In this document: one piece after another, positions 10,792 through 31,460 of the stretch | How positions within the stretch are numbered: position 1 is the stretch's first letter | How the letters are laid out: each line of letters opens with the position of its first letter | Virus record (IMG/VR): IMGVR_UViG_3300002460_000023 | Span: 1 to 43,984 of that record | Strand: one strand, 5' to 3' | DNA from: a virus | DNA length: 43,984 nucleotides | Notes under the pieces: model-generated | What the model was told of the DNA's origin: nothing | The model's input: the letters and a program-made list of their open reading frames with translations, nothing else | The model's database searches: none | Position numbers and translations under genes: made by a program

Positions 10792-11751
10792 CTACACCGC
10801 CACTTCAGCCTTGGTCTTCTTGACGGACACGGCCTTCTTCACTACCGCCTTTTTGACGACCGCCCGCTTTACCGGGCTACCCGCTGCCCCCGCCACCGGA
10901 ACGCCCTCTATGATCCCCCGCGCGATTGCCAGGAGGCGATCACCGTCCAACTCGGTGGTACGCGGCTGGCTAAACGCCGCCTTGATCATTTCGACGTCGG
11001 CCATGTTCTCAAACCAGAAGGAGGCCTCATAGCGTTTGCGTTCCTGCCTGCCGTGCACCGTGGGGGCCTCACCACCCTCCGTAGTATGCCAGCTACCCTG
11101 ATTACCGCTCATCAAAACCAGCTCTGCCCGGCGCTCAGCTTCGATGTCGGTGAGGCCGCCCGTGCTCTTAAAGTGAGCCACGAGCTTGGCCTTACGCTCT
11201 TCCATGCTGAGAACACCCTCGCCAATCGCCTCAGACTGCTTGGCGTAGTGTTCCATCAGCGCAGTGAAGTCCTTCTTCTCGATGCCCAGCGAGTCCGCCG
11301 TTTCCATACCGTAGTGCTGAGCCAACTCGGCCACGTAACGGCTGTAACCGTCCATTTCCCACTCACCGTCGGCCACGTTGTCACGAATGACGATGGCCTT
11401 AGCTACCTCGTCGGTAACCTCCACAAAGCTGACGGGCATTGGAGGCACCACACAGCCTTCGGCCTTCATCTCCAGGATCACTCGACGCCGCATATTGCCA
11501 GCGAGCAGTTGGACAGCGCCGTCGGATCTTCTGCGGAGGGTAAACGGCTTGAATATACCGTAACGCCTGATGGACAGCTTCAGATGTTCCCTAGCTGCAT
11601 CGCTGATCGTTCGAGGGTTGGTTTCATTGGGTGGAACCTGCTCGATGTCCAAGAAGCTGTCAGCCGTGCACACCACACGAATCTCGTTCACGCCCACAAT
11701 CACCGCCTTCTTAGCAACGGTCTTCTTGGCTACAACCTTCTTAGCTTGCAT
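10792..11751 (-). CDS. ParB-like nuclease-domain protein with H1-like tails, 319 aa
   Basis: Residues ~35-100 match the ParB/Srx N-terminal domain: a VPPNETNPR motif, a helix ending in SIRRYGIFKPFTL, then LLAGNMRRRVILEM, corresponding to the GERR-like phosphate-binding box of ParB-fold CTPases/nucleases. No clear ParB central HTH is seen; the middle region is acidic and helical. Both ends carry Lys/Ala-rich segments (KKVVAKKTVAKKAV at the N-terminus and KKAVVKKAVSVKKTK at the C-terminus), as in histone H1. Such phage ParB-like proteins can bind or nick DNA or regulate transcription. The start overlaps the stop codon of the Mre11-Rad50 fusion by one base. Confidence 0.85.
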   Translation of the reverse strand: MQAKKVVAKKTVAKKAVIVGVNEIRVVCTADSFLDIEQVPPNETNPRTISDAAREHLKLSIRRYGIFKPFTLRRRSDGAVQLLAGNMRRRVILEMKAEGCVVPPMPVSFVEVTDEVAKAIVIRDNVADGEWEMDGYSRYVAELAQHYGMETADSLGIEKKDFTALMEHYAKQSEAIGEGVLSMEERKAKLVAHFKSTGGLTDIEAERRAELVLMSGNQGSWHTTEGGEAPTVHGRQERKRYEASFWFENMADVEMIKAAFSQPRTTELDGDRLLAIARGIIEGVPVAGAAGSPVKRAVVKKAVVKKAVSVKKTKAEVAV

Positions 11752-14609
11752 TACACCCCTCCGGTGAATTGGCTCACGCCGTTGGCCTTACTTACCGAGA
11801 TAGTTTCAGACACTGTTGCTAGTGCTTGAATAGCGGCTACATGAGAAATCATCACAACCTGTCTGTTCATACTACGCAGCATATCCACTAAACCTTCGGC
11901 GCCGTCAGCATCCAACCCCGAGTCCAGCTCGTCAACAAACATAACATTGAACTGTCCAACAGCGGCTACTAGCAGGTCATAAAGAGCAAACTGCACACAA
12001 ACGTTCACCCTAGCCCGTTCCCCGGTAGACATGTTGTTGTACGGTGAACCATCTGCCTCTATGACAATGGCTCCCTTGTCTTCATCGATGCTTAGGGCCA
12101 GTTGTGGGGTACCGGCAAAATACGTGTCTGAATAGTAACGGGCCCTGGCATCCAGTTGAGCGACAACACCGCCAAGAGCAAGCGTTTGAATACCCTTTGG
12201 TGAGAAAGCATCCTTCCAATAGCCAGCCAACACAGCATCAAAGTGCTGTTTGTCAAGCTCAGCAGCTTTAGATAGCTCAGCCACCTTAGCTTGGGCTACT
12301 CTGTCTTCAAATGGCTGCAAATCTTCACTGCTGTTCAACACGTTCTGCCAGTGCTGCACCCACTTCTCAGCGTTGACTATTTCAGATTCAATCGTCTGTT
12401 TACGCATAATGAATTCATCATGCACACGCCGGGCCTTATCCACGTCTCTGTGCGCAGAGGCTTCTTCTATAACTGCCCATCGCATCTTTGTGGCAGTACG
12501 GCTTGCCAGCTTGTCAAGAGCGTGCGACACAGAAAGGGCTTCCGCAATCTGCCCAACCACCGAACTGCGGTCAATGGGTTGCCCACAAGCCACGCACACC
12601 GGCTTCAAACTTTTCAGCCTTTCCACTTCTCGTTTTCTACTACGGCTCTGATCAGCCAGACGGTTGTACGCTTGAGACCACAGGTTAACTTGCGACCTCC
12701 ATTTTTCGGCCTGGTCGGCAGCCACTGTTGCCTGGTCGGCAGGGGACGTCGCCATGTGGCGTTCCAGAACAAGAAGATCAGCTTTAACGGCCTCCTGCAT
12801 AGCGTGCAGTTGCCTCTGTGCTTCAGTGTCGGCTGTTTGCTTCCTAGCCTGTGCCGCCACCAACGCCTGTTCAGCAGACTCCCGTTGTGCCTGTAAGCGA
12901 GCCTGTTCCGTTTCTATTGTTTGCACGTTCGCCAGCGCAAAACGTTCTTGCTTGAAGAAGAAGTCACGCATTTGTTCATAAACGTCTACTGCGAGCACCC
13001 GGTCCAACATACGCCGCTTCTGAACCTCTGTACCCGTGTTAAAGAAGCCAGTGGCCTCACCAGACAGGGCTACCAAGTCGTTAAACGTTTCAAGGTCTAG
13101 CCCCAGCAAGTCGTTAAGAACCTGCTGCCGATGATCGGCCCGCATACCCTTTGTGGTTTCTACCCCGTCAAGCCAGACCTCAAGTGCGTTACCCCCGGTT
13201 TCGTGCTTTCTGAAGCGAGTAACCCATACATGACTGCCACCGGCCTGCATCTCTAGGCAGACATTGGTACCCGGGGCCGGGTTTCCCCGCCTCACCACGC
13301 CCTCTGCTGTCAGGCCCCGCTGAGTTTTGCCGTAGAGACACCAAACTAGCGCCTCTACAATGGAAGACTTGCCGCTACCGTTTTTGCCCAGTACCAACCT
13401 GAAGGGTGCGTCGAATGACAAGTCAAACGCAGCCACAGACATGAAGTTTACAAGACTCAAGCTCTGAAAGGTAAACTGCTTGGACAGTTTCTTGCTAGGC
13501 TGTGCCACCCGCAGCGCGTCCAGCACAGCTTTGCGGTAATCGCCCGCGCCGGTTACCGGGTTCTTCTGTAGCCACACATCGACAAGCTGCTCGGTGGTCA
13601 ACAGCGACATAGCCTCTGTCACGTTTACCGGTTTGGGCACCTGCACGGCAGAATATGTCTTGAAGCCACTTCCAAGATTTGCCGCGTAGCCCGCATTGCC
13701 CTCTACCATAGCGCGAACGTGCAAGCTGCTCGCTTCAACGTGTGGCGGTATCCGCTTGAGCTGGTTGCTTACCTCCAGGCCCGTACCCCGAACAACCAAA
13801 AACTCATCTGTGTGTGGGTTACCCAACCAAAAGAGGTTGAACTCTCCTATGCTTCTACAAGGCACTTCAGGCCCAAGACCATACCGGGCACGGGCCTGTA
13901 ATTCGCTCATACGGAGTGCTAAGAGCAGGATGCCCCTTGGGTAGTCCCCATACCCGTCCTTGTAGTTACGGGCGACCAGTGAGCCCGGTGTCACGACCCA
14001 GCCTCCTCCTACACGGAGGGCGCCGGGCTTGTGGTAGTGCCCGCTTACTATAAGCCTATTGAGCCGTGGTTTCAAGCCCTTTTCTTCAAACTTACCGGGG
14101 CCAACTGGATACCCATGAATCGTGCAGTGCACCACAGAGAATAGAGCTTTCTGTGTAGCTTGTCCCTCACAGCCAGTAGGGATTATTTCATACTTTATAC
14201 CCTGCATCCCAAACTCGGTCCATTCCTTCACACAGTCAAAGTGAGGTACCGTTGTCAGGGTATCGCCGTACTTGTCGTGATTACCCAGCACGTACACGAA
14301 TGGTATATCGTGCTGTTCACACCTGTGCCCTATGGTGTTCATACCAAAGGTGGCTACATTCAACGCGGCAACGTCTACGTACTTGCTTGTTTCAAAGGTA
14401 TCGCCAAGGTTCACCACTACATCCGGCTGGATATCGTTTACCTTGTCGGCCACCCACTGGAACGCCTGCTGCTGTTGGACCAACAGGGTTGTAAGTCCAC
14501 CCGGCTCTGGCGTTGAGTACTCATTAGAGGGATGAACGTGCGTATCGCCATAAAAAAGAAAGAGCACGGGTGGGTGACCCGTGCGCTGAAGTTTGTCTAT
14601 GACGCGCAT
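11751..14609 (-). CDS. Single-chain Mre11-Rad50 (SbcD-SbcC) fusion, 952 aa
   Basis: The N-terminal ~240 residues are a metallophosphoesterase with the Mre11/SbcD signature: GDTH at 21-24, GDTFE at 69-73, GNHD at 109-112, HCTIHG at 161-166 and GHYHKP at 190-195. From ~380 the protein becomes a Rad50/SbcC ATPase: Walker A GKNGSGKSS at 408-416, two coiled-coil segments around a CVAC zinc hook at 672-675, an ABC signature STGERAR at ~861, Walker B VMFVDELDSGLD at ~889 and the ISHV H-loop at ~921. T4 gp47 and gp46 are the two-gene equivalent. The complex would process DNA ends for recombination-dependent replication. The coiled coils are short (~100 residues each). ATG at 14609 with AAGGA upstream. 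Confidence 0.93.
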   Translation of the reverse strand: MRVIDKLQRTGHPPVLFLFYGDTHVHPSNEYSTPEPGGLTTLLVQQQQAFQWVADKVNDIQPDVVVNLGDTFETSKYVDVAALNVATFGMNTIGHRCEQHDIPFVYVLGNHDKYGDTLTTVPHFDCVKEWTEFGMQGIKYEIIPTGCEGQATQKALFSVVHCTIHGYPVGPGKFEEKGLKPRLNRLIVSGHYHKPGALRVGGGWVVTPGSLVARNYKDGYGDYPRGILLLALRMSELQARARYGLGPEVPCRSIGEFNLFWLGNPHTDEFLVVRGTGLEVSNQLKRIPPHVEASSLHVRAMVEGNAGYAANLGSGFKTYSAVQVPKPVNVTEAMSLLTTEQLVDVWLQKNPVTGAGDYRKAVLDALRVAQPSKKLSKQFTFQSLSLVNFMSVAAFDLSFDAPFRLVLGKNGSGKSSIVEALVWCLYGKTQRGLTAEGVVRRGNPAPGTNVCLEMQAGGSHVWVTRFRKHETGGNALEVWLDGVETTKGMRADHRQQVLNDLLGLDLETFNDLVALSGEATGFFNTGTEVQKRRMLDRVLAVDVYEQMRDFFFKQERFALANVQTIETEQARLQAQRESAEQALVAAQARKQTADTEAQRQLHAMQEAVKADLLVLERHMATSPADQATVAADQAEKWRSQVNLWSQAYNRLADQSRSRKREVERLKSLKPVCVACGQPIDRSSVVGQIAEALSVSHALDKLASRTATKMRWAVIEEASAHRDVDKARRVHDEFIMRKQTIESEIVNAEKWVQHWQNVLNSSEDLQPFEDRVAQAKVAELSKAAELDKQHFDAVLAGYWKDAFSPKGIQTLALGGVVAQLDARARYYSDTYFAGTPQLALSIDEDKGAIVIEADGSPYNNMSTGERARVNVCVQFALYDLLVAAVGQFNVMFVDELDSGLDADGAEGLVDMLRSMNRQVVMISHVAAIQALATVSETISVSKANGVSQFTGGV

Positions 14610-14611
14610 TC

Positions 14612-15157
14612 CTACGCTTCCTTCTCGAATACGGTGAACGCCCGCAAACGGTTGTTCTGCCCCACCATCACACCGGCAACGGCAACGAACCGAGCACCCT
14701 CTGGCGTTTTGGGCACAAGATAGTGGATGATCCCCACACGGCCGCCAAGCCGTAGAGCCACCATAGCGTTCGCAAGCAACGAACCCGGCCTTGGGTACTT
14801 GCTTGAGCCTACTTTGTAATTCGCGGCCTCTTCTTCACTGTAGGGCGGGTCCATGAGTATTGCCCGCCAGAGGCCCCTGTCACTCAGAGGGTAGGGTAAC
14901 CGGGCGTCCTGCAGGAAGTCGGGGCTAGTCTCAGGGTCCAGGTCCAGTGTCTTGTCGTAGGGCCCAAAACCACGAGAGTATGGATAGAATCTAGCCATAC
15001 CCCCGCACACGTGTAAGACAGGCGTATTCAGGCTGGCTCCCAGTAGGACCCTTGCTCGCTCCGGGAATCCACCAGGGTAAGCTCCGTAGTAACGACGCCC
15101 CTCTTTCAACTTAGCACGGGCAAGTATCCACATGTCGGTTATCGGCCGGTAGCTCAA
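14612..15157 (-). CDS. DPPY-motif methyltransferase-like protein, 181 aa
   Basis: ILMDPPYSEEEA at about residue 100 is the catalytic DPPY motif of N6-adenine and N4-cytosine methyltransferases, followed by ALRLGGRVGIIHYLVP, the strand after motif IV. The SAM-binding segment would be VLHVCGGMARFYP, which is divergent from DxFxGxG. At 181 aa there is no separate target recognition domain, so it may act on nucleotides or need a partner. TTG start at 15157 overlaps the Nudix stop as TTGA, with GGAG upstream. Placement between Nudix and Mre11-Rad50 suggests a role in phage DNA or nucleotide chemistry, by inference. Confidence 0.78.
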   Translation of the reverse strand: MSYRPITDMWILARAKLKEGRRYYGAYPGGFPERARVLLGASLNTPVLHVCGGMARFYPYSRGFGPYDKTLDLDPETSPDFLQDARLPYPLSDRGLWRAILMDPPYSEEEAANYKVGSSKYPRPGSLLANAMVALRLGGRVGIIHYLVPKTPEGARFVAVAGVMVGQNNRLRAFTVFEKEA

Positions 15158-15804
15158 CCCTTGCGCTCCATATCCCCTGGAGTTGTCCTGTCCACCACCC
15201 GGATTGGAAACGCCACATCATCGTCATTGGATAGGGGCACTAGCCAACGCAGGTTCTTCATGATACGATCCTCAGAACTGGCTACAAGCCAGTCAAGGTT
15301 AGTCTGAACAATATCTTCATGGCTGCTACCGTGCTTTGGTCCGTAAAACATGGGGGAAATGCTGCGGAAGAACCAGACGAAGTTCTTACCATGCTCCAGG
15401 AGCACGGTGCACGCCCAGTCATCCTCGAATGTTTGTACGCCCGTTTCTTCCAGAAACTCTCGGACCATCGCGTCAGTAGGGCTCTCCCCGTCCTCTATGC
15501 CGCCGCCAATCCCGTTGAGCTTCCCCGCTTGCCACGCGGGTTTCTTCTTCCGGACCAGCAGCACAGCCGTTCGCTCTGGGTTGAACATAAACCCGCAGAC
15601 GTAGAACCCTTCGATGGTAGCCCCAACGTTTTCCGACGTGAGCGCGATACCGTGCATATCCAGCACTACCCGACCGCCGTCTTCCATGATAGCGTGCTGA
15701 TAGTCCGCGTCTTTCAAGCGCCCGCATATTTCAGTAAACGTCAGGGTGCTTACTTCCATCTCTGCAAAGGTATGGGTCTGGCGTAGCATTCGCTTAGCCC
15801 TCAC
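15154..15804 (-). CDS. Nudix hydrolase, 216 aa
   Basis: The Nudix box is intact at about residues 99-122: GGGIEDGESP, then REFLEETGV, matching GX5EX7REUXEEXGU, the site that binds Mg2+ and hydrolyses nucleoside diphosphates linked to another moiety. The preceding strand FMFNPERTAVLLVRK and the following VLLEHGKNFVWFF fit the Nudix fold. Substrates could be oxidised or unwanted nucleotides, NAD-like compounds or capped RNA. The GTG at 15804 forms a GTGA overlap with the RecA stop and is preferred over an internal ATG. It is about 50 residues longer at the N-terminus than a minimal Nudix protein. Confidence 0.88.
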   Translation of the reverse strand: MRAKRMLRQTHTFAEMEVSTLTFTEICGRLKDADYQHAIMEDGGRVVLDMHGIALTSENVGATIEGFYVCGFMFNPERTAVLLVRKKKPAWQAGKLNGIGGGIEDGESPTDAMVREFLEETGVQTFEDDWACTVLLEHGKNFVWFFRSISPMFYGPKHGSSHEDIVQTNLDWLVASSEDRIMKNLRWLVPLSNDDDVAFPIRVVDRTTPGDMERKG

Positions 15805-16832
15805 TGTTTACCACGACAGATACGCTGCCCCAACTCAGGCAGCTTACGGATGGTTTCCATCAAAGCGTCCTTCCCCTGCCAACGCATCTTTCCGTGGTTG
15901 TACCACGACCCCGTCACTGTTAAAGTGCCCTGCCGTTTACCTAGCTCGATGATACATTCAGGGTCGTCCCACATCTGACCAGTCCGCAGGTTCACATGGT
16001 AGGTAGATTCACACAAAGGCAGACCAAGCTGGTTCTTTATGCACTGAATGCGCACCACACCCTCACTAGCTGCCGTCTTGAACAGCCTGTCCCCCTTGTC
16101 GTCCCGAAGCAAGCTCATTGACTCGATGTTCAACCGCACCCGGCAGAAGTGCTTGATAGCCCCCGCCCCCTTACTGTCCGCGCGGTAGCTATCTTCGATG
16201 TTCATGCGCTTGCTGTGGTTAATGATGATGAACATACAGCGGGTACTGGCAAACGAAGGTAGCCCCGCTTCTGGCCAACCACTTTCCAAGCGGTGCAGCA
16301 TATTCGTCATGAACGCCGCTTGCTCGTTCTGCTGGTTCATCTTCAGGTTGCTTGTCGTCGCCGACATAACCTCTTCAGGTACCATGCTAGAGGCACTGTC
16401 CAGCACGATCATCCGGTAACCACCTGAGATAGCGGCCCGGATACAGCCTTCATAGTGTTCAGCCGAGCCAAGGCCGTGTGCTATCTTAGTCCGGCTAAGA
16501 TTCATCCCATTCAGCGACATCCAGGCAGGCACGTGGCTACCCTCAACGTCACACCAGAGCACAAACGCTTCAGGGTCGCGGGCGTGCAGCATCGCCGCCA
16601 TGTGTATGGCAAAGAGAGTTTTCCCAGACGATTCTAAACCAAATAGCTCTATTCCGTAACCAAACGGGAGGCCCCCAAGACCCAGTACACCGTGATCCAC
16701 AGCAGGCAGGCCAGTGGAAAGAAATTCCACGTTGCGGAAGCTGTCAGACACTTCATCAGCCGTGGGCATTTCATCCAGCAGCTTGCGGAACATGTTGGCA
16801 GCCTGTGTAACCGTCAGCGTTTTGTTGTCCAA
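15801..16832 (-). CDS. RecA/UvsX-like recombinase, 343 aa
   Basis: Walker A GLESSGKT at residues 65-72 (RecA-family GPESSGKT type), Walker B MIVLDSASS at ~141-149, and a region rich in Asn, Gln and Ser after it that fits DNA-binding loop L1/L2. IIINHSKR corresponds to the conserved sensing segment near L2. Size agrees with RecA (about 350 aa) and T4 UvsX. It would form filaments on ssDNA and carry out strand exchange in replication and repair. The TTG start at 16832 has GGAGG with a 7-nt spacer, although it overlaps the RuvC-like gene by 19 nt. Confidence 0.92.
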   Translation of the reverse strand: MDNKTLTVTQAANMFRKLLDEMPTADEVSDSFRNVEFLSTGLPAVDHGVLGLGGLPFGYGIELFGLESSGKTLFAIHMAAMLHARDPEAFVLWCDVEGSHVPAWMSLNGMNLSRTKIAHGLGSAEHYEGCIRAAISGGYRMIVLDSASSMVPEEVMSATTSNLKMNQQNEQAAFMTNMLHRLESGWPEAGLPSFASTRCMFIIINHSKRMNIEDSYRADSKGAGAIKHFCRVRLNIESMSLLRDDKGDRLFKTAASEGVVRIQCIKNQLGLPLCESTYHVNLRTGQMWDDPECIIELGKRQGTLTVTGSWYNHGKMRWQGKDALMETIRKLPELGQRICRGKQ

Positions 16833-17401
16833 CGCATTGCCTCCTGCTTGGCTCTACGTAGGTAGAGCCGGTGATAAACGTCTGACCACCGAGTACATAG
16901 AAAAGCCGCCCCAGCGTCGGTGATATGCTCTTGCAGACCCTCCGGGCGGTAGTCGTGAAGTTGAGGCCATTGCTCATAGACGGCTTCAGCTACTTCTTCC
17001 TTGCTGGACTGTTTGCTGCCCCCTATAGCCAGCTTGCTGTCATAAGGGGATATGGCGATCATTGGTATCTGCATGTAGAACGCAGCCGCAGTCAGCACCG
17101 CCGTCGCCATACCTAATGCCTTCGTGCTTATGGCACTCTGCGAGCCTCCCATAGGCAACTCCACGGCCATACCGCCAACATCCTCACGTTCTACAATCTC
17201 CTTCAGCCCAGCTACTAGAAGACGTATGCGTGTAACATCATCCTCAGCGATGCTGATGCTCTGTGCTTTCCGCACCTTGGGCTTGGTTCGAGACGTACGC
17301 AAGACCCCGAAGCCCCGCAGGTCCAAAGTAAAGGGGTCGGCCACCACCCAGCCAATATTGCTGAATGCGGCATCGACCCCCATGTAGTTCAATGCAGACA
17401 T
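16814..17401 (-). CDS. RuvC-like Holliday junction resolvase, 195 aa
   Basis: RNase H-fold signature: strand 1 MGVDAAFSNIGW with the first catalytic Asp at residue 9, strand 4 GMAVELPMGG with a Glu at ~80, and a C-terminal HITDAGAAFL helix with the last Asp, as in RuvC and phage resolvases. The size matches RuvC (170-190 aa). It would cut four-way junctions made by the neighbouring RecA-like protein. ATG at 17401 follows the upstream TAG with no gap. Confidence 0.85.
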   Translation of the reverse strand: MSALNYMGVDAAFSNIGWVVADPFTLDLRGFGVLRTSRTKPKVRKAQSISIAEDDVTRIRLLVAGLKEIVEREDVGGMAVELPMGGSQSAISTKALGMATAVLTAAAFYMQIPMIAISPYDSKLAIGGSKQSSKEEVAEAVYEQWPQLHDYRPEGLQEHITDAGAAFLCTRWSDVYHRLYLRRAKQEAMRWTTKR

Positions 17402-18949
17402 CTAGAACGACGCCGGAAGGGCCTCGCCCTCTGCCCATTCGCTCACTTGCTGATCACGCATGGTAGCCACGAGGTGCAGGCTGTTCCGTGGCACCACGTA
17501 GACGGTACCATCAGCTCCGGTTACGTGTGCGTCAGCTCCATCAAAAGCTTTCAGTGTGTAGTGCATGCCTTCACCATCTTCGTCACACCACACGATGCTG
17601 CCTTCAACAAGCTCAGCCGCCGCTGCCACAACCTTCTTGGCAGGCGCTTTCTTTACAACTGCCTTCTTGGCGACCACCGGCTTTGCAGGAGCAGCGGTTG
17701 GGGCCGGGCGCAAGGTAACAGGGGCAACCGGCGTTGCCATCGCAGGGGCCTTGGCAGGAGCCTTTACAGCCGCCTTCTTTACCGGCTTGGGCGCCGTTGC
17801 CGCAGATTTCAGGTGGCACTCACTGGCGGGCACGTCATAAAAGTTGGCTCCATCGGTAACCTTCACCAGATCAGCCGTAGCCTCTACAACCTTCCAGTCC
17901 ACCGCTTCTCCGTCCTCATCACACCAGACCAGATCACCCGGCAGGAACATGTCCTTAAGGCTAGAAGGCTGCGCCGCGTGTTTTGCGGGCCGCTTGACAG
18001 GGGCTGGGCTGGAAACCGGCGCCGTTCGCCTCGGCGGGAGCGCGGGCATGGAGACCATGGTACCAGCATTGGCCCCCAACAGAGGCAAGCCCAACTGCTC
18101 AATGGCGTTCGTCATTGCGGGGCGTATTGCCTCGGGGAAGATCTCGTCGTCGTTCCGGGTGATGTAGTCCAGCTTGATGGGGTATTGCTCTAGCATCGCC
18201 AGGATTTCTTCCTCAGACACTGGAGCCGTCTCTGTAGTGAAGTCCAGGTCGGCGCTACGGATAGCGTCTAGCTCAGCCTGCGTGAATACACCCTCGTTGA
18301 CCCAATCAAAGTCAGGGGGAACACCCTGCCGCCACTCCAGGGGCACGCGCCCCGCCCAAGGATTCTCCACCACGTCTACCCGGTAACGGGTCTTCTGGTC
18401 GGCCGACCGCCGGTCTACGCCCTTGCTTTCTTCCAGAAACTTCACGGAATACATGTCGTAGAAATTCATCGGCCCCCACTTCAGCACTGCGGGGTCCGTT
18501 GGCTTCGGCGTGGTGTTATACTCCGTGATCTGCTTCGCCTGGGTCCAGTTAGCCGAGTACAGAACCGGCTTTGGGTTGATGTGGTGATCGGGCACCCGTT
18601 TGTCGAAGATCGCAAACAGGTAGGTGGACCGACGGTTGAACGTGCAGTTGGGACGACCCTTGGCTGCCCCGCGTTCAACCGCATAGGACTGCCTGATTGC
18701 CATTTCCTTGGCGCCCAACCGGTCCAGCACGGTGTTCTTGTCCTCGGGGTTGAGGCGGACACTGCGCCACGTAGGCTCAACCTGCCCAGACTGGTTGCTC
18801 ACGGCCTCCGTCGGCCACATGATCGTGTGGATGGTATCGCCGCCCTCGATGAATCGGAACAGGTGTTCACCGATGTCAAGGTCATTGTACTTCAGAACAC
18901 TGGTCCAGTCACGCCTCGGGGCTACGTGTCTTCCTGGGTTAAGAGCCAT
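17402..18949 (-). CDS. Possible ssDNA-binding protein with H1-like linker and two Tudor-like modules, 515 aa
   Basis: Residues 1-~295 form a globular domain (GEHLFRFIEGGDTIHTIMWP, RRSTYLFAIFDKRVPD) whose position beside RecA, RuvC and polymerase, and whose aromatic beta-like strands, suggest a gp32-like ssDNA-binding protein; this is inference. Then come a Pro-rich linker, a ~45-residue module at 336-382 (GDLVWCDEDGE...FYDVPASECHL), a Lys/Ala/Pro-rich H1-like linker at ~388-440, and a second copy of the module at 447-495 (GSIVWCDEDGE...YVVPRNSLHL). The modules look like small SH3/Tudor barrels. ATG at 18949 with AAGGAGAG upstream. A single ssDNA-binding protein would usually be shorter. Confidence 0.8.
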   Translation of the reverse strand: MALNPGRHVAPRRDWTSVLKYNDLDIGEHLFRFIEGGDTIHTIMWPTEAVSNQSGQVEPTWRSVRLNPEDKNTVLDRLGAKEMAIRQSYAVERGAAKGRPNCTFNRRSTYLFAIFDKRVPDHHINPKPVLYSANWTQAKQITEYNTTPKPTDPAVLKWGPMNFYDMYSVKFLEESKGVDRRSADQKTRYRVDVVENPWAGRVPLEWRQGVPPDFDWVNEGVFTQAELDAIRSADLDFTTETAPVSEEEILAMLEQYPIKLDYITRNDDEIFPEAIRPAMTNAIEQLGLPLLGANAGTMVSMPALPPRRTAPVSSPAPVKRPAKHAAQPSSLKDMFLPGDLVWCDEDGEAVDWKVVEATADLVKVTDGANFYDVPASECHLKSAATAPKPVKKAAVKAPAKAPAMATPVAPVTLRPAPTAAPAKPVVAKKAVVKKAPAKKVVAAAAELVEGSIVWCDEDGEGMHYTLKAFDGADAHVTGADGTVYVVPRNSLHLVATMRDQQVSEWAEGEALPASF

Positions 18950-19005
18950 ACCGAATCACTCTCCTTTATCGAAGTAGAACAGGACCCAATTTAGCACTCC
19001 GGGTT

Positions 19006-19731
19006 TCATGTTTGCATCCGATGCCCAGCTACATCTTCGACGTTGTACATACGTGCAAGAGTCTGGAGGTACGACCCAGCGTTCTGCGTTATCGTGTAGA
19101 GCCCCTTCATCATATCCTTGTTAGCACGGGCCTGTCTGATCTTCTCCTTCCACCCTAGGAACACCTTCTGCGTCTTCTCATCGGTGCATATCTCAGCCTC
19201 CACCTGGGGACCCGTGATCTGCCCAATCTCCTTGCGTTGCTTCGCGGCCATTTCCTCCTTACGTTGTTCACGTATGCGGTCTTCGGCCTCTTTGCGTTGT
19301 CCTGAAACCCAGACCTCGTAGAAGTTTTCCAACTTCTCCAATTCGGAGGAAGCCTCAGTTGCCGCCACCAGGAACGTGGCACTGTAGAACGCGCAACGAC
19401 TCATATGCTTGGCAAGCTCTTCTCGGTTGAAGCGCTTCCGGGCGTTGTCCCACCGCAGCGCATAAACTTCGTCGATGGCCTGCTTGAACTGCCTCTCCCC
19501 GATCTTTACATCCACAACGATCATTGCGTCATCGGGGTTCATGCTGAACATTTCAAGATCGGTCAGCATCGCCAAGTGCTGTCCCAAGTCCTTAGAGGCC
19601 CCCTGTGCTTCCGACGGCTTCACATAAGGAGCTGCGGTCTCTGGCGCACGCGGGGTCTGGGCTACTAATACCTTCTTGACGGGCCGCTTAACGGGCGATG
19701 CTGACGGACGGCTGACTGGCACCTTAGGCAT
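19006..19731 (-). CDS. Coiled-coil protein with short basic N-terminal tail, 241 aa
   Basis: The N-terminal 25 residues are basic and Pro-rich (SPVKRPVKKVLVAQ), resembling the tails on neighbouring proteins. The middle is helical, with a strongly charged coiled coil (GQRKEAEDRIREQRKEEMAA) before a C-terminal helical domain. No family recognised. The ATG at 19731 is chosen because GGAGG lies upstream and upstream residues overlap the polymerase 3' end; an open frame continues to 19827. Location between polymerase and the possible ssDNA-binding protein suggests a replication accessory role. Confidence 0.75.
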   Translation of the reverse strand: MPKVPVSRPSASPVKRPVKKVLVAQTPRAPETAAPYVKPSEAQGASKDLGQHLAMLTDLEMFSMNPDDAMIVVDVKIGERQFKQAIDEVYALRWDNARKRFNREELAKHMSRCAFYSATFLVAATEASSELEKLENFYEVWVSGQRKEAEDRIREQRKEEMAAKQRKEIGQITGPQVEAEICTDEKTQKVFLGWKEKIRQARANKDMMKGLYTITQNAGSYLQTLARMYNVEDVAGHRMQT

Positions 19732-19777
19732 CTTAGCGTATTCCTCCGGTTGGGGCTGCAATAACCTGTTACGCCCA

Positions 19778-22261
19778 TCAGGCGGCCACCCGCAACGGCT
19801 TCGCCCCGAGCCTGTCGAGTATGGCACAGTCGGCCTTAATCGGAACTACAGTCCCAAGATCGCCACACCCATCTGTCATTATGCTGAGCACCTGCTGGGC
19901 AACTTCATCGGCATAACGTTCTTGACACTCAACCACGATGTTGTCGTGAACATTCAGTAGGGGATAGGCTATCCGGGAGTCCAGCTCTCTGTGACACCGG
20001 CTAAAGGCACGGTTTGTAATGTCGCCAGCGGTACCTTGGATTCCTGAATTTATTGCTTGATTCTCTGCGTGCTTACGCACGCCGTCGTCTGTATCATTGA
20101 TACCTAGAATACGCCGCTTGCGCCCGAAGTATGTTTCCACGTAACCGTGTTCACGGGCAAACTGCACGACGTCTTGCATCCACGGGCGTACTGCTCTGAA
20201 CCGTCTGAAGTAACTATCAATGAAACTGGCACAGTCCTCAACGGTATACTTCGCAGCCATTTCGGCTACTCTATCCAACCGAGTGTCGCCAAACACGATA
20301 GTTCCATAGAGTGTGTCTGGCCCCACCATGTACATCACGCTGAAGTTTACCGTCTTGCCGATGTTCCGTTGGTCCTTCGTTACGACGTCAACGGGCACGC
20401 GAAATATCTCAGAGGCTGTACCCTTGTGCAGGTCGGCCCCGGTTAGATAAGAAGACAGCATCAGTGGATCGCGTGTATAGTACGCCAGAACTCTCAGCTC
20501 TATCTGGCTAAGGTCGCTTGAGATAAACACACAGCCGGGCCTGGGAATGAACATTTGCTTCACCAGTCCGGCGTATGGGTTATCATCGGCACTACGTGGT
20601 ATGTTCTGCAAGTTGGGCTTGGCACAGCTCAACCGGCCAGTACGCGTCCCGTGCTGCAAGAAGCTTGGGTGCAGAACCCAATTGTAGTGCTTACCCAGCA
20701 TTCCAGTGATGTAGGTACTGTCAATCTTCTTGACTTGTGCGTATTCAAGCAGCGCACCTACGATTGTTCTAGCATCATCACTGGTATTAGGCTTCAACGC
20801 GATAGTTATCAGCGTTTGCTTGTCTGTAGGCAGTTGCCCACCCGGCGTCCTTAGAATCTCACTGGAGCGCGCGTGCTTCGTTAGCGGCTTTACCGCCATG
20901 CTTTCATAAAGAAGACGCTGAGTTTGCTGCCCACTATCTGGGTTAAACTCGTGCCAGCCATACCTACCGGCAACTTCTAGGATAACACGGGTAACCCTAT
21001 CAGCATCCTCGCGAAGCTTGATAGCCGTCTTAACAAGATGGCTTTTGTCAATGGTGATACCGGTGTGCTCTGCGCGAGCCAGCGCCTCCATCGTAGGCAT
21101 CACAATGTCGTTGTAGAGCCCTGTCAGCTTTGGCTGCTTATTGAGCAGTGCACGATGTCTCAGTGCCAGTTGTAAGGTAGCATCAGCATCACCACAAGCA
21201 TAGGGACCCAAGACGCCGAGCGACTGCTTGCCGAACGCTATCTCCTCGTCGTCGGCCTTGCGCTTACCGACGCCGGTAGCGTTATACATTTCGCTCTTGT
21301 AGCCCGCCATGTGGGGCAGATAACGACTCGTCAGGATGTCCAAACCAAACCCGCCAACTTCAGAGTCTAATGTATGCTCTGCGAGCATGGTGTCTAGAAC
21401 ATGGTTGGTTGGCCACACACTGAATGCTCGCTGGCAGAGCTGCGCGTCAAACTTCAAGTTATGCCCCGCCTTCCTAGCGGGTGACGTTAGCGTAGCCGCT
21501 ATCTCTGCATAGAGCTTCCTCGCAAAGACATGACGTTCAATCATCGAGGGCCGCACCCAACCGCTAGCCGGACTCCAGCTCCATAGAGGTATATAACAGG
21601 CGTCACCGGGTTTAGCACAAAAAGAAATACCGACGCACCAAGCGTCAGGAGTGACGTCGGTTGCCTCGGTGTCGTACGCCCACGCGGGGAGGCCTTGCAG
21701 CCTACGAAGTTCCCGCATAGCTTCTTCGAAGTCTGTTATGATCCGATAGCTTTTCTCTGTGCGTAGAACGTCATACTTGCCGCGTGCCATGTCCAGAGCG
21801 GTACGAATATCGTTTATAATGATCTGCGTGTTAGCCGGATTGCGTAACGCGAAGGCCGGGTGGTAGGTGGGAACCATCAACCCCCACTGTGTCTTAATCA
21901 ACCGACCTCGGTGTTTGCTTATACCCGCGCTCTTGGCCCCACCATAGCCCATGAGCTTGCCAAGAGCTGTGTTACCCATCGGGATGACAACTTTTAACTG
22001 ACCCTTGTACTGGTCAAGTATATTCATCATGATGGGAGCACAGCAGTTTACTTCCACACGGTCTAGCTTGTTGTTCGGGGGCCTGCACTGAACTGTGTTC
22101 ACCAATATAACGTCTGTTTCCCTGTCTAACCCAACCTCACGAAGGATGGCGTTAAGTAATTCCCCCGACCGCCCTACAAGTACACGGCCAAGTCGTTCCT
22201 CATCGGCTCCAGGGGCTTCACACACGAACGCAACCCAAGCGGTCTTAGGTAAGTGCGGCAT
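19778..22261 (-). CDS. Family A DNA polymerase with N-terminal uracil-DNA glycosylase domain, 827 aa or longer
   Basis: Residues 1-~155 match family 4 uracil-DNA glycosylases (VCEAPGADEERLGRVLVGRSG, QCRPPNN, TYHPAF). Then a DEDD 3'-5' exonuclease (DTE at 197, NLKFD at 268, ACGDAD at ~355) and a family A polymerase: motif A SSDLSQIELR at ~581, motif B RNIGKTVNFSVMYMVG at ~632, motif C NVHDNIVVE at ~770, where the usual HDE is HDN. SPO1-type phage polymerases also carry a glycosylase-like N-terminus. The true start is unclear: the frame upstream of 22261 encodes CPSCRLYG, the expected N-terminal iron-sulfur Cys pair, but no start codon lies before the TGA at 22316. Confidence 0.93.
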   Translation of the reverse strand: MPHLPKTAWVAFVCEAPGADEERLGRVLVGRSGELLNAILREVGLDRETDVILVNTVQCRPPNNKLDRVEVNCCAPIMMNILDQYKGQLKVVIPMGNTALGKLMGYGGAKSAGISKHRGRLIKTQWGLMVPTYHPAFALRNPANTQIIINDIRTALDMARGKYDVLRTEKSYRIITDFEEAMRELRRLQGLPAWAYDTEATDVTPDAWCVGISFCAKPGDACYIPLWSWSPASGWVRPSMIERHVFARKLYAEIAATLTSPARKAGHNLKFDAQLCQRAFSVWPTNHVLDTMLAEHTLDSEVGGFGLDILTSRYLPHMAGYKSEMYNATGVGKRKADDEEIAFGKQSLGVLGPYACGDADATLQLALRHRALLNKQPKLTGLYNDIVMPTMEALARAEHTGITIDKSHLVKTAIKLREDADRVTRVILEVAGRYGWHEFNPDSGQQTQRLLYESMAVKPLTKHARSSEILRTPGGQLPTDKQTLITIALKPNTSDDARTIVGALLEYAQVKKIDSTYITGMLGKHYNWVLHPSFLQHGTRTGRLSCAKPNLQNIPRSADDNPYAGLVKQMFIPRPGCVFISSDLSQIELRVLAYYTRDPLMLSSYLTGADLHKGTASEIFRVPVDVVTKDQRNIGKTVNFSVMYMVGPDTLYGTIVFGDTRLDRVAEMAAKYTVEDCASFIDSYFRRFRAVRPWMQDVVQFAREHGYVETYFGRKRRILGINDTDDGVRKHAENQAINSGIQGTAGDITNRAFSRCHRELDSRIAYPLLNVHDNIVVECQERYADEVAQQVLSIMTDGCGDLGTVVPIKADCAILDRLGAKPLRVAA

Positions 22262-22339
22262 TACGGGATGCTGCCCGTAAAGCCTGCATGAGGGACATTG
22301 CGGCCAGTAGAAGGTTCAGCGCCCCTTTCTCTGGTGAAC

Positions 22340-22355
22340 GGGTGGGTACCGAATC
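22340..22355 (-). promoter_or_regulatory. Repeated 16-bp intergenic motif, copy 1
   Basis: Minus-strand GATTCGGTACCCACCC, found again exactly at 29201-29216 in another intergenic gap. It lies between the terminator at 22374-22413 and the polymerase gene, where a promoter would be expected. Its core TACCGAATC also occurs at about 18950-18960 just before the possible ssDNA-binding protein gene. Candidate phage promoter or regulator site. Confidence 0.45.
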
Positions 22356-22373
22356 GTGTTCGCGGGTCTACAT

Positions 22374-22413
22374 AAAAAACAAACGAGGCTGGGCAGAATA
22401 CCCAACCTCGTTT
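22374..22413 (-). terminator. Rho-independent terminator after the H1-like gene
   Basis: On the minus strand a 13-bp stem (AAACGAGGTTGGG/CCCAGCCTCGTTT, one G-U wobble) with a 7-nt loop is followed by GTTTTTT. The wobble pairs only in the minus-strand RNA, which supports this orientation. It lies 25 nt downstream of the H1-like gene and separates it from the polymerase. Confidence 0.93.
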
Positions 22414-22437
22414 GCTACCCGATCTGCCCTCCAGGCT

Positions 22438-23115
22438 CTAGCCAGCGGCCTTCTTGGCAGCCACTTTCTTGGCAGGCGAAGCCTTCTTGGCCGGGGCCGC
22501 CTTCTTGGCAGGCGAAGCAGCTTTCTTTGCCGTAGCCTTCTTGGCGCCCTTCACCCCGACGGGGGGGCCGGGCCGCGTGCTGGGCGGCAGGTCTTCGACC
22601 TTCATGCTGGCGAGGGCCCTGGCCGAGGAGACGATCTCGGAGATGAACTGCTTAATAAGGACAGCGTCGCTGCCCCGGTACTTGTACTTCTTTCCGACGG
22701 TCCCCTCGAACCCGGCGCCCTTGGCAGTGATGTCCTTCAGCGGAGTGTGCATGTACACACTCTTGGGCCGGGGGTAGATCGTGGCGAGCCGGAACGTGCG
22801 GCCGTGCACTTCTCGCCAGAAGGAAACCCCGGTAGCCTTGTTCCGCCGTTCGACGGCAAACTTGCCCAGAGCTTTCTCGAAGTCACCGACTACCTGTGCG
22901 TTCAGATCAACAGGCGCCTTCTTGCGTTCGCTGGCCGGTTTCTTCACCACCGCCTTCTTAGCGGGGTTCTTCACCGCGGCCTTCTTTGCCGGGTTCTTCA
23001 CCGCCGCTTTCTTCGCCACCGCCTTCTTAGCCGGTGAAGCGGCCGGAGCGGCGGCCGGTGCGGGTTCTGCGGCAGCAGGCTCTGCGCTTGCCGCAGCGGT
23101 TGTCTCTTCTGACAT
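22438..23115 (-). CDS. Histone H1-like protein with central domain, 225 aa
   Basis: N-terminal Ala/Pro/Glu-rich segment, then an H1-like tail at ~28-66 made of repeated NPAKKAAVK/KKAV units, a folded core at ~69-180 (DFEKALGKFAVERRN, FWREVHGRTFRLATIYPR), and a second H1-like tail at ~188-225 (SPAKKAAPAKKASPAKK). The tails should bind DNA or polyanions non-specifically, as in AlgP- or H1-like bacterial proteins; the core is not recognised. ATG at 23115 with AGAGGGGG upstream. A strong terminator follows, so this gene is likely the last of its transcript and could be expressed strongly. Confidence 0.85.
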   Translation of the reverse strand: MSEETTAAASAEPAAAEPAPAAAPAASPAKKAVAKKAAVKNPAKKAAVKNPAKKAVVKKPASERKKAPVDLNAQVVGDFEKALGKFAVERRNKATGVSFWREVHGRTFRLATIYPRPKSVYMHTPLKDITAKGAGFEGTVGKKYKYRGSDAVLIKQFISEIVSSARALASMKVEDLPPSTRPGPPVGVKGAKKATAKKAASPAKKAAPAKKASPAKKVAAKKAAG

Positions 23116-23184
23116 ACTAAGACCCCCTCTTAGATGGTTATCCTACACTTTGGCTAGAAGCTCACGTAACCGTATACGCGGGTT

Positions 23185-24348
23185 CTACGCCAGTTCCACG
23201 TCCTCTTCAGCAACTGCGTAGACGTTGCCGTCAGCCGACTGGATCAACAGCTTGCCTGCTTCGTCGTAGCCATTGACGGTGTACACTGCCCCATCACCCT
23301 CAGCCGGGACGGTAACGGTCTTGCCTTCCCACCCGGCTTCCTCCGCTGGGTCTTCTTCCGGCAGGTCTTCTTCCGCAGGCGCCTCGGCAGCCTTCTCGAT
23401 CACGTGCAGGCCATCCAGGCTGACCACGTAGTCCGTGTCACTGCTGTCCCTGATTGTTGCCGTCCCGTCTTCATTAAGACCAGCCACGGTGCACACGTCG
23501 TGCTCGCCGTAGTCGTTGTGCCAGACCGTGTCACCCTCAGCAGGTCCCGCAACTTCGACGGGTTCCGGCTCCGGCTCGGGTTCCGGCTCGGGCTCGGCCA
23601 CAGCCGCAACAGCCTCTGCCAACCGACAGCCCTCCAGGGGCACGGTGTAGTCGTTGGCCCCGTCAGTTACCGTAGCCGTCTTGCCCTTGATCGCCTTGAC
23701 CTCGTAGACGGTACCCTCAGACGGGGTGCCGTCGTCCTCGGCACATGTGACGGAAACGCCAACCGCCACGGAAGGCTCTGCCACAACCGCCTTCTTGGCT
23801 GGAGCTTTCTTGGCCGGGGCCTTCTTGGCAGGGGCGGCAGGGGTCGCTGGAGCAGTCGGGGCGACTGTTGCCTTCTTTGCTGTAGGAGCCTTGGGGGCTT
23901 CCTTGGCCGGGGCTTTCTTTGCCACCGCTTTCTTGGCGGGGGCGGCTTCCGGAACAGGTTGTACGCTGCTGGCTTCCACGTCGTACGGGGAGCCATCAGC
24001 GGCGACAATCCTCAACGTGGAACCGTCTACCGACTCTACCGAGTAAACAGCACCATCCCCTTCAGCAGGGATGGTGACCTGCTTACCCACGAGACTTGAC
24101 CCAAGCACAGACTGCACGCCCGGATCAGCGCCATCATCCTTCTCCATAAGATCGACCCCCTCTTCGTAGCGCGCTTTGTAGTTGGCGTACATCGCCTTGA
24201 GGAGTGTCTCCTTCGTGAGACCATCCTCACTCTCAACTGCCACGCCAAACTCGGTGTGCCAGTTTTCAGAGAGCAAGTCCTGGAGTGTGTGCGCCTGCCA
24301 GCACTCACAGAACTTTTCTTGGGTCAACGGCCCATCGGTAACTGCCAT
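23185..24348 (-). CDS. Possible separate product from internal start, 387 aa
   Basis: In the same frame as the 615-aa protein, ATG at 24348 (Met229) is preceded by GGAGG with a 7-nt spacer, as good as any gene start here. It falls at the boundary between the sigma-like part and a new N-terminal segment (MAVTDGPLTQEKF). Translation from it would give a free protein with a small helical domain, four Tudor-like modules and H1-like linkers. Whether the long form, the short form or both exist cannot be told from sequence. Confidence 0.45.
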   Translation of the reverse strand: MAVTDGPLTQEKFCECWQAHTLQDLLSENWHTEFGVAVESEDGLTKETLLKAMYANYKARYEEGVDLMEKDDGADPGVQSVLGSSLVGKQVTIPAEGDGAVYSVESVDGSTLRIVAADGSPYDVEASSVQPVPEAAPAKKAVAKKAPAKEAPKAPTAKKATVAPTAPATPAAPAKKAPAKKAPAKKAVVAEPSVAVGVSVTCAEDDGTPSEGTVYEVKAIKGKTATVTDGANDYTVPLEGCRLAEAVAAVAEPEPEPEPEPEPVEVAGPAEGDTVWHNDYGEHDVCTVAGLNEDGTATIRDSSDTDYVVSLDGLHVIEKAAEAPAEEDLPEEDPAEEAGWEGKTVTVPAEGDGAVYTVNGYDEAGKLLIQSADGNVYAVAEEDVELA

Positions 24349-25032
24349 GTACCGTCCTCCAGTGAGGCGTTTGTGGAAGCCAAACGGTAACCCCGGTGCG
24401 ACCTTCCCTTCGCTGTCCAAATACGCAAGAAGGGTTATGAATGGTGCCACCCTCGCTAGCCCTACACACATGCGAACTGCCGATAACCCGTGCATTACAA
24501 CTCGGTGTACATGCTTGTAAGAAAGCCCAAGCTCTACTGCTAATTCCCTTATTTCGTCAGCGCCTTTCCAGTACCTGTCGAACACTTGCAAGTAGTCGGG
24601 CATATAGAGAAGCATCGCAAACCGCGCGAGCATTACTGCCCTTGTATGCTTAATATACACGGCCTCATGGGTCTCGGCAAGGGTAAAGTTGTGCTCCAAC
24701 CAAGCGTATCCCCGGCCTTTGCGTTCCAGCTCATCACCAATGCCACCCGGAGTTGTAGACCTGTGTATAGTGCGCACGCCTGCCTCTGTCTTTCTTATCT
24801 CGTCCAAGACAGCGTTCTTCATACAGACCAGCGCGAAGTGCTCAAATGGGTAGCGGTCCTCATGCCTAAAATGCTGGAAGGCATGCCAAAGGCCAACCCC
24901 CGCGATTGCTGCAAAGTCTTCACGTGTGTTCAGCCCGGTACGGTCCTTGGGGAGTCGTATTCTATAGCGTAGTTGGTTGAACATTCTGCTGTATTCACGT
25001 TCAAACGCTGGCCCACTTACAGGCAATTTCAC
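23185..25032 (-). CDS. Sigma-70-like protein fused to H1-like linkers and Tudor-like modules, 615 aa
   Basis: Residues ~35-85 resemble sigma region 2 (EDFAAIAGVGLWHAFQHF, then FALVCMKNAVLDEIRK) and ~155-192 resemble region 4 (ADEIRELAVELGLSYKHVHR), so the first ~228 residues look like a phage sigma factor. The remainder holds four ~45-residue modules (~315-360, ~424-473, ~499-546, ~568-614), each with G-x-x-V at the start and Y-x-V near the end, joined by PAKKA-type basic linkers, a PEPEPE run and an acidic linker. GTG start at 25032. An internal ATG at 24348 has GGAGG with a 7-nt spacer. A sigma factor with such an extension is very unusual. Confidence 0.85.
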   Translation of the reverse strand: MKLPVSGPAFEREYSRMFNQLRYRIRLPKDRTGLNTREDFAAIAGVGLWHAFQHFRHEDRYPFEHFALVCMKNAVLDEIRKTEAGVRTIHRSTTPGGIGDELERKGRGYAWLEHNFTLAETHEAVYIKHTRAVMLARFAMLLYMPDYLQVFDRYWKGADEIRELAVELGLSYKHVHRVVMHGLSAVRMCVGLARVAPFITLLAYLDSEGKVAPGLPFGFHKRLTGGRYMAVTDGPLTQEKFCECWQAHTLQDLLSENWHTEFGVAVESEDGLTKETLLKAMYANYKARYEEGVDLMEKDDGADPGVQSVLGSSLVGKQVTIPAEGDGAVYSVESVDGSTLRIVAADGSPYDVEASSVQPVPEAAPAKKAVAKKAPAKEAPKAPTAKKATVAPTAPATPAAPAKKAPAKKAPAKKAVVAEPSVAVGVSVTCAEDDGTPSEGTVYEVKAIKGKTATVTDGANDYTVPLEGCRLAEAVAAVAEPEPEPEPEPEPVEVAGPAEGDTVWHNDYGEHDVCTVAGLNEDGTATIRDSSDTDYVVSLDGLHVIEKAAEAPAEEDLPEEDPAEEAGWEGKTVTVPAEGDGAVYTVNGYDEAGKLLIQSADGNVYAVAEEDVELA

Positions 25033-29801: not shown

Positions 29802-31448
29802 TTACTTGCCCTCGTCCATGTTAGCGAACAGCTCTGTCAAACACTGTACATCGTCATCGGGCCGGTAGGGGTCAATCTGCCAGCACGCCGTCGCAAAGTG
29901 CTTGAACAAATCCATCTGGTCTTTTTGCATTTCCCCAGAACCCGTGTAAACAGCCCAGCAAGAGGCATCGCTCTTCTCCATGCGCTCCCTGAATTTCTTG
30001 GACAACTTGCTTGCCGCTATCGGAAAGCACATGTCACTGATAAAAAGCACGTCGGCCTTCTTGAAATCATCTTGGTTCATACCCCACAGGCACATGGTAA
30101 AGGCAAGGTCGAAGTCTGTGCCACCGCCCAAGAAGATTTGGGTAAACCTCATAAGGAGCAGCTCTTCACCCGGCGCGGCATCAAACCGCTGCACAACTGC
30201 TGAAAACCCGTGGTAACGCCCTACCCGCTTCTGGTAGTCGTCGTAACTCCACGCAATGTTGTCCTGAGCGCCGTCACAGAACTGTATATAGTAAAACGGC
30301 TGTTTACGCTTGGCCGCCTCACGATACTGCACCAAAGCCACAGCCTTCGCCCAGATAATCTCGTTGCCACCCATACTACCAGACCCGTCAACACAACATA
30401 CAACAGGGCCTAGCCCCTCAGGCTCTCTGGATTCCTTCTGCCAGTTAAGAGCTTTACCATCTAGCAGACGCGCCCACAGTTCCTTCTTCATTACCGGGTG
30501 CGCCAGATTGACGAACTCGGAACCCGTCAACCTTTCTAGCTTACCACCCAGCACCACGTCCACGATTGTCTCGCTACCTCGCGTTGTCTTGTTACGCTTA
30601 ACGTGGTCGTGAATACGCTGGATGCGCCCGGCCAGCCGAGCAATGCGCTTCAACTGTTCGTCGTCCTTCAGCATACGTGCCACTTCAAGCTGGTCTTTAA
30701 CGGGCATTTTACGGCCTGCTCCCTCACCCTCGCCGCAGCCAAAGGCGTCAATGGCCTCCATCGTGGCTTCGATATCGTCAATGGCGCTGCGGATAGCCTC
30801 TGACATTTGCCCTTGCACCGTCTGCTCGTTGTTGGCAAACTCCTGCCGCATCTTCTGAGCATTCTGTGCGGCCGACTGCACAGCCTGTAAGGTTTGCGCC
30901 TTGGTAGACTTGATCTTCTGCTGGAGCTCCTTCATCTTAGCCTGCAACTCTTCCAGCTTCTTGCCAGTAACGTTGGCTGTCTGCTTGCGCAGCGTCTTGT
31001 ACATGTCACGCAAGCCATCCAGACGCTTACGCATCTGCTTGGCTTCCATCATCGCGTTGTAGTGCCCCTTAATTGCTTCACGCAGCCCAGCGGGTAGATT
31101 CTCCACAACCTCTTCCAGCCGTCGGGTGGCTACAAGGCTGGCCAGTTCATTGCGCGTTGTCATACGCCGCAACCGCTGCAATGATTCCAGCCCCTCCATG
31201 TGCTTCAGCAGATGCACATGCGGCTCAATAAGCCCGCTAACCTCGGCCGAAGACTTTATGCGCGGGGCGCCCTTGTAGAACCAGTTGTACGTGTCACACT
31301 GCATGTTCTGGTATAGCGGCAGGAACTTCTTGCCGCTGTTGGCCCTTTGCGCAAGGTCGGGCGCCCGGTCGTATAGCTCCAGGAAACCTTCCCGGCTAAA
31401 GGTGGTGCCGTCAATCCCAAACAGCTCGCTTTCCAGGTGGTTGAACAC
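29802..31448 (-). CDS. VWA-domain protein (ViaA/CoxE-like), 548 aa
   Basis: The N-terminal ~250 residues are helical with a long coiled coil (KLEELQAKMKELQQKIKST). The C-terminal third is a von Willebrand A domain with a full MIDAS: DGSGS at 354-358, the Thr of GGGTD at 441-445, and the Asp of LFISDM at ~470. Such VWA proteins pair with MoxR-type AAA+ ATPases, as in E. coli RavA-ViaA and CbbQ-CbbO, where they deliver or remodel metal-dependent or membrane complexes. Here the MoxR gene is directly upstream (12-nt gap). A role in remodelling host or phage complexes is inference. Confidence 0.9.
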   Translation of the reverse strand: MFNHLESELFGIDGTTFSREGFLELYDRAPDLAQRANSGKKFLPLYQNMQCDTYNWFYKGAPRIKSSAEVSGLIEPHVHLLKHMEGLESLQRLRRMTTRNELASLVATRRLEEVVENLPAGLREAIKGHYNAMMEAKQMRKRLDGLRDMYKTLRKQTANVTGKKLEELQAKMKELQQKIKSTKAQTLQAVQSAAQNAQKMRQEFANNEQTVQGQMSEAIRSAIDDIEATMEAIDAFGCGEGEGAGRKMPVKDQLEVARMLKDDEQLKRIARLAGRIQRIHDHVKRNKTTRGSETIVDVVLGGKLERLTGSEFVNLAHPVMKKELWARLLDGKALNWQKESREPEGLGPVVCCVDGSGSMGGNEIIWAKAVALVQYREAAKRKQPFYYIQFCDGAQDNIAWSYDDYQKRVGRYHGFSAVVQRFDAAPGEELLLMRFTQIFLGGGTDFDLAFTMCLWGMNQDDFKKADVLFISDMCFPIAASKLSKKFRERMEKSDASCWAVYTGSGEMQKDQMDLFKHFATACWQIDPYRPDDDVQCLTELFANMDEGK

Positions 31449-31460
31449 GGTAGCCCCCGT

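Follow-up and report, generated by a model that had tools for sequence, protein, structure and literature searches.

The tails of single-stranded DNA-binding proteins (SSBs) are hubs that recruit replication and recombination enzymes, and their textbook form is a short acidic tip. Another architecture is encountered in the phage operon described here, in which lysine- and alanine-rich segments and small folded modules are appended to several proteins, and the question is raised as to what such tails may do for the phage and whether they are peculiar to it. The stretch of DNA analysed, termed the window, covers positions 1-43,984 of an uncultivated tailed-phage record that is 74,860 bases long. 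The first-pass annotation of the window had proposed a shared modular design of electrostatic tails and small barrels on a replication set, and this proposal is borne out by the lysine-rich segments, the homology among the modules, their predicted fold and the pattern of charge.

The Phage and Its Replication Operon

The record has a tailed-phage gene set, of which the portal, the major head protein and the protease are located outside the window; a DnaB-like helicase and a helicase loader are also encoded. Searches with Pfam and PHROG revealed in the window a UDG-PolA fusion, RecA/UvsX, RuvC, a fused SbcD-SbcC and a ParB-like protein, and all of the operon ORFs described herein lie on the minus strand. 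The polymerase (19778..22261) is composed of UDG, exonuclease and family-A DNA polymerase parts, with the uracil-DNA-glycosylase-superfamily domain placed N-terminal to the polymerase in one chain. The SbcD-like phosphoesterase and the SbcC-like ATPase form a single 952-aa nuclease (11751..14609), corresponding to two genes in the distant locus L004, while the RecA/UvsX-like recombinase (15801..16832) matches phrog_97 at 1.1e-33. None of these three proteins, nor RuvC in the same operon, carries a tail. Elsewhere in the window, a MoxR/RavA-type ATPase (phrog_19600, 3.5e-56) adjoins a 548-aa protein matching phrog_24053, a family of unknown function, in a possible small operon at 29802-32831 (minus strand), and the largest gene of the genome is a 1,464-aa ORF at 48097-52491 of the whole record (minus strand).

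The phage is very distant from all sequences searched: the best PolA match among 50,697 phage records is 29.5% identical, and the only IMG/VR locus found with PolA was the remote L004, at 25% identity. Beyond L004, no relatives were detected by single-protein scans of IMG/VR (with PolA, the SSB-position protein, RecA, the core of the H1-like protein and SbcCD) or of GTDB genomes (with PolA). The SSB-position and sigma proteins gave no phage match by tblastn, and the IMG/VR and GTDB scans yielded no close relative in which conservation of the phage's own four tailed proteins could be checked.

Lysine-Rich Tails on Four Proteins

Segments of the KA type, defined as 30-aa windows rich in lysine with alanine, proline or valine, were sought in all ORFs of at least 60 aa over the whole 74,860-base record. 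Exactly four ORFs were returned (10792-11751, 17402-18949, 22438-23115 and 23185-25032), namely the four nearby proteins on which KKAV/PAKKA-type segments had been noticed at first inspection. All of them are situated inside one 14-kb replication operon, where they span 11 consecutive predicted genes of 67 (P = 0.009 under random placement, the gene set being heuristic), and the charge of their KA linkers and tails ranges from +6 to +14. When the proteins were shuffled with their composition preserved, a KA segment was reproduced only for the H1-like protein, which is K/A-rich throughout. The fifth rank in a relaxed scan was occupied by a coiled-coil-like protein of 241 aa (19006..19731; PKVPVSRPSASPVKRPVKKV), whose short N-terminal K/R/P-rich tail agrees with the weaker tail ascribed to it earlier. 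Its slot is filled by a protein of 150-172 aa in other phages, and profile and shuffle tests against these positional counterparts were not significant.

The ParB-like protein (319 aa, 10792..11751) scored 28.0 bits against Pfam ParB_N, above the curated cut-off of 26.3, and matched the PHROG ParB-like family at 2.7e-17; it is assigned as a ParB/Srx-domain protein with a putative role in partition. As first described, K/A/V tails are attached to both of its ends, the N-terminal one being MQAKKVVAKKTVAKKAVIVG (11692..11751, +6) and the C-terminal one VKRAVVKKAVVKKAVSVKKTK (10795..10890, +8). In the H1-like protein (225 aa, 22438..23115), two KA tails (+14 and +13) flank a core of 117 aa. Its scores against the NCBIfam families hist_H1_lk_Burk (1.5e-5, 25.3 against a cut-off of 80) and Rv3852_fam (2.4e-5, 24.9 against 100) fall below both curated cut-offs, and its H1 likeness resides in the repeats only; the core (22561-22911, minus strand) had no family match in any library used, including Pfam, PHROG and NCBIfam.

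In the sigma fusion (23185..25032), the sigma-70-like N-terminal part of about 190 aa reached 25.0 bits for Pfam Sigma70_r2 (PF04542), over the curated cut-off of 24, and 31.8 bits for NCBIfam sigma70-ECF (9.5e-8), under the cut-off of 42.9, with a weak HTH match at residues 152-180. This part is followed by a barrel, a KA linker (23770..23952, +11), a second barrel, an acidic block, a third barrel, another acidic block and a fourth barrel, the two acidic blocks (-7 and -8) having gone unmentioned before.

Recent spread of the KA tails at the DNA level, by gene conversion or duplication, was considered and rejected, as the codon identity in aligned tails equals random expectation; for instance, 9 of 23 codons at aligned identical residues were the same, against 9.9 expected. 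Since codon choice follows chance in this way, the KA tails are not fresh DNA copies or slippage products, and selection at the amino-acid level or independent origin is more likely. A reading of the four tailed proteins as a defence system was likewise set aside, none of them having a PADLOC match.

Acidic Barrel Modules

Two modules are present in the SSB-position protein (residues ~336-382 and 447-495) and four in the sigma fusion (residues ~313-360, 422-473, 497-546 and 567-615, encoded by 23953-24096, 23614-23769, 23395-23544 and 23188-23334, respectively, within a four-barrel stretch at 23188..24096). The copy numbers and the kinship suggested at the outset were right, while the length of about 45 residues given at that time has to be adjusted to about 47-52 aa. 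All six modules are mutually homologous, as phmmer (e.g., 9e-6 and 8e-9) and shuffle z-scores of up to 19.5 indicated, and all are linked through one of them, module 14b.

AlphaFold2 modelling of one module on the six-module alignment gave a pLDDT of 95.3 and a barrel of five strands, the last of which is preceded by a short helical turn. The nearest PDB folds found by Foldseek were the MutS2 KOW region, Spt5 KOW, the retroviral integrase C-terminal domain and PWWP, with TM-scores of about 0.7-0.78 and E-values that are weak (best 8.7e-3), as would be anticipated with a query of 49 aa. The modules are accordingly predicted to be SH3-like barrels of the KOW/Tudor type, as a fold class, which upholds the Tudor-like character proposed for them, and the unrelated structures that would have spoken against a common design were not obtained. 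Although Spt5 KOW, MutS2 KOW and the integrase C-terminal domain share this fold class by AlphaFold2 and Foldseek, the window modules differ from such barrels in having no significant sequence family match and in being acidic, repeated and tethered by KA linkers. The net charge of all six is negative (-5 to -11), and between them lie KA linkers (+11, +12) and, in the sigma fusion, the acidic blocks as well. Because all six are acidic, the barrels themselves are probably not DNA binders.

The Protein in the SSB Position

The 515-aa protein encoded at 17402..18949 consists of a core, barrel 1 (17804..17944, -8), a KA-rich linker (17609..17803, +12), barrel 2 (17465..17611, -6) and an acidic C-terminal tip, TMRDQQVSEWAEGEALPASF (17405..17464, -3), which ends in Phe and may play the role of an SSB tip. 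No match to any family was obtained for this protein in Pfam, PHROG, NCBIfam or PDB sequences; its core displayed no significant pairwise, profile or shuffle similarity to its SSB positional counterparts, and a single-sequence AlphaFold2 model of residues 1-300 attained a pLDDT of only 34.

Its gene sits between the DNA polymerase, together with a small protein, and RecA, with the RuvC gene intervening in the window. L004 and the loci L086 and L087, which belong to phages of Bacillus and Lysinibacillus, repeat the order Pol / ~170-aa protein / SSB / RecA, and part of it (small protein / SSB-slot protein / UvsX) is present in a Pseudomonas phage (L084); the protein in the SSB slot of L004 ends with EKPAKAKKAKAAK. 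It has also been documented that phage recA genes lie near ssb, polA and sigma genes, often together (PMC8093625). Judged by gene order and tail design, the 17402-18949 protein is quite likely an SSB.

Recurrence of the Tail Design in Other Phages

DUF669 (Pfam PF05037) proteins beside Sak4 are experimentally established SSBs (PMC5928155), and it is on these that the same tail design was recognized. The best PolA match comes from phage ctfzr933 (MW202455.1), whose DUF669 protein (229 aa) combines a K/A/E linker with a barrel at the C-terminus. In the DUF669 SSBs of ctfzr933, Lebethron, STP12, Serbin and Almagne, a basic linker is followed by a homologous acidic barrel at the end, with helical modules lying between in the latter four. 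An HMM built from the window modules alone retrieved the DUF669 SSB barrels at E = 1.7e-5 among 6,616 sequences, and reversed decoys gave nothing at E <= 1. Among complete DUF669 SSBs sampled from IMG/VR, 14 of 36 contain the barrel, each preceded by a basic stretch (a rough fraction, since the sample includes near-duplicates), and 13 of these 14 barrels are acidic; others show helical modules, blocks of K/A mixed with acidic ones, or simply an acidic tip (e.g., DEDIPF). Repeated helical modules of ~40 aa (TYESVQEMDKDELLALAEEN...LRDFICEQLELE), HeH/SAP-like, were observed instead of or besides the barrel in L208, L210, L211, L212 and other DUF669 SSB loci.

The DUF669 SSBs next to Sak4 (e.g., UOF76989.1 of MW202455.1 and XPB67145.1 of Pseudomonas phage Lebethron) thus resemble the 17402-18949 protein in the placement of the SSB gene in a Pol / nuclease / RecA-like module and in the basic linker leading to a C-terminal barrel that is acidic and shares homology with the modules of the window. 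They differ in their N-terminal DUF669 core, which the window protein does not match, and in having usually one barrel, often with intervening helical modules, whereas in the window protein a long KA linker is flanked by two barrels. The gp32-like SSBs of L198, next to RecA, and of Bacillus phage Goe26 likewise occupy the slot beside RecA and bear a K/A- or lysine-rich tail with an acidic stretch, but they are devoid of the barrel and their core is unrelated to that of the window protein at a detectable level. The Goe26 protein (L087:2995-3996, plus strand) contains a block rich in lysine, then a long and strongly acidic region, and is rich in lysine again at its end.

Beyond SSBs, a RecA/UvsX-like protein of another phage (L011:5032-6291, minus strand) has an N-terminal KKAVVKKAAAK tail, and the Pol / nuclease / Sak4 module of the IMG/VR contig 3300048091_000049 contains two tailed proteins, namely a DUF669 SSB and a 152-aa protein of the K/A-plus-acidic type. 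Two KA-bearing ORFs were found on the same stretch in only 1 of 101 KA loci, a count drawn from short, mostly motif-collected stretches that missed 3300048091_000049. The initial statement that no such combination was known on a replication set must accordingly be narrowed: a basic linker with a homologous barrel is carried by several phage SSBs, and two K/A-plus-acidic tails meet in one other replication module, but the present operon, with four KA-tailed proteins, goes further than any other case seen. A search of open-access literature yielded no description of phage SSB tails with SH3, Tudor or KOW barrels, which does not imply their absence elsewhere.

The loss of tails in relatives that keep the gene, named beforehand as evidence against the design, was encountered for the DUF669 SSB family only, where relatives have helical modules, acidic tips or nothing in place of the tails; the phage's own proteins offered no close relative for comparison. 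Because these relatives swap or lose their tails yet keep the gene, the tails form an accessory, exchangeable layer. The tail style is exchanged between relatives, recurs on phage SSBs and is not unique to this phage. The new aspects are its distribution over four proteins of a single operon, the sigma and ParB-like proteins included, and, by sequence comparison, the apparent recurrence of linker-plus-acidic-barrel tails on SSB cores of unrelated sequence.

Possible Roles of the Tails

The explanation preferred here, in which we place moderate confidence, is that portable tails of polycationic linker and acidic mini-barrel keep phage replication proteins on DNA and recruit partners. Counterparts of the linker are known from bacteria: the H1-like lysine repeats of Streptomyces TopA stabilise protein-DNA complexes and lengthen residence and processivity (PMC7398561), while those of mycobacterial HupB stabilise DNA binding and immobilise HupB on the nucleoid (PMC5676037). 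The tails of actinobacterial TopA and mycobacterial HupB are alike in being PAKK/KAAK-type H1-like repeats appended to DNA-acting proteins; they differ in being chromosomal, lacking barrels and belonging to single proteins rather than to several from one operon. Histone H1-like proteins are also encoded by phages such as the moraphages, where the protein is reported to stand alone, in contrast to the tail common to replication proteins here (PMC12619734).

By analogy with the TopA and HupB repeats, the KA segments should act as disordered polycations: irrespective of the DNA sequence, they would hold the SSB, sigma, ParB-like and H1-like proteins on phage DNA and so lengthen residence time and increase processivity. 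The acidic barrels, tethered by the KA linkers, would most likely serve for protein docking or attach to basic stretches in the same protein or in a partner, and would be the folded equivalent of the acidic tip known from classical SSBs. Sharing one tail type, the SSB, the H1-like protein (a presumed DNA-packaging protein), the sigma factor and the ParB-like protein could all be concentrated on the same replicating, transcribed DNA, where a retained sigma factor could couple late transcription to replication, and partition might be coupled likewise. DNA retention, docking and transcription-replication coupling by the tails are what we infer from these analogies.

It could be argued instead that the KA segments have no shared function, being plain flexible linkers or low-complexity expansions of the kind GC-rich phages typically show, and that only the barrels and catalytic domains matter. 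KA-rich segments do occur singly on many unrelated phage proteins, and the linkers of DUF669 SSBs vary greatly in length and composition and are swapped among relatives. In this genome, however, the segments are confined to the replication operon, their codons speak against fresh DNA copies or slippage products, and the presence of one K/A type at N- and C-termini as well as between barrels is more than linkers alone account for; this alternative is regarded as unlikely.

More doubtful is a condensed replication compartment, in which lysine-rich tails, DNA and acidic barrels or blocks form a complex coacervate that gathers the SSB, sigma, ParB-like and H1-like proteins. The alternation of oppositely charged blocks (barrels, KA segments and acidic blocks), the multivalency of up to four barrels per chain and the mixed K/A and E-rich tails in the replication module of 3300048091_000049 would suit it, but charge patterning alone does not demonstrate phase separation, nothing recognisable as a shell or matrix protein was found and the segments are short (60-65 aa). 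Still more speculative is a specific form of it, in which acidic barrels on the SSB and sigma proteins read the KA segments of the ParB-like, H1-like and SSB proteins and thereby cross-link the machineries of replication, partition and late transcription on phage DNA, giving a condensate that depends on the tails and has no shell. That the barrels bind nucleic acid directly, like integrase C-terminal or KOW domains, and turn the proteins into bivalent DNA/RNA clamps is highly improbable: barrels that bind DNA or RNA are among the nearest folds, but nucleic-acid binding is rare for acidic barrels, and all six window barrels and nearly all of the homologous SSB barrels are of that kind.

Retention on DNA with recruitment of partners is hence the explanation retained. 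Beside the short acidic tip, phages seem to possess a second, little-noticed design, in which a lysine-rich linker with acidic mini-barrels is mounted on sequence-unrelated SSB cores and is also borne by a sigma factor in this genome, while the ParB-like and H1-like proteins carry the lysine-rich part only, without barrels. Should such tails indeed keep proteins on phage DNA or bring in partners, they would provide a simple and general means of tying transcription, partition and replication to one template.
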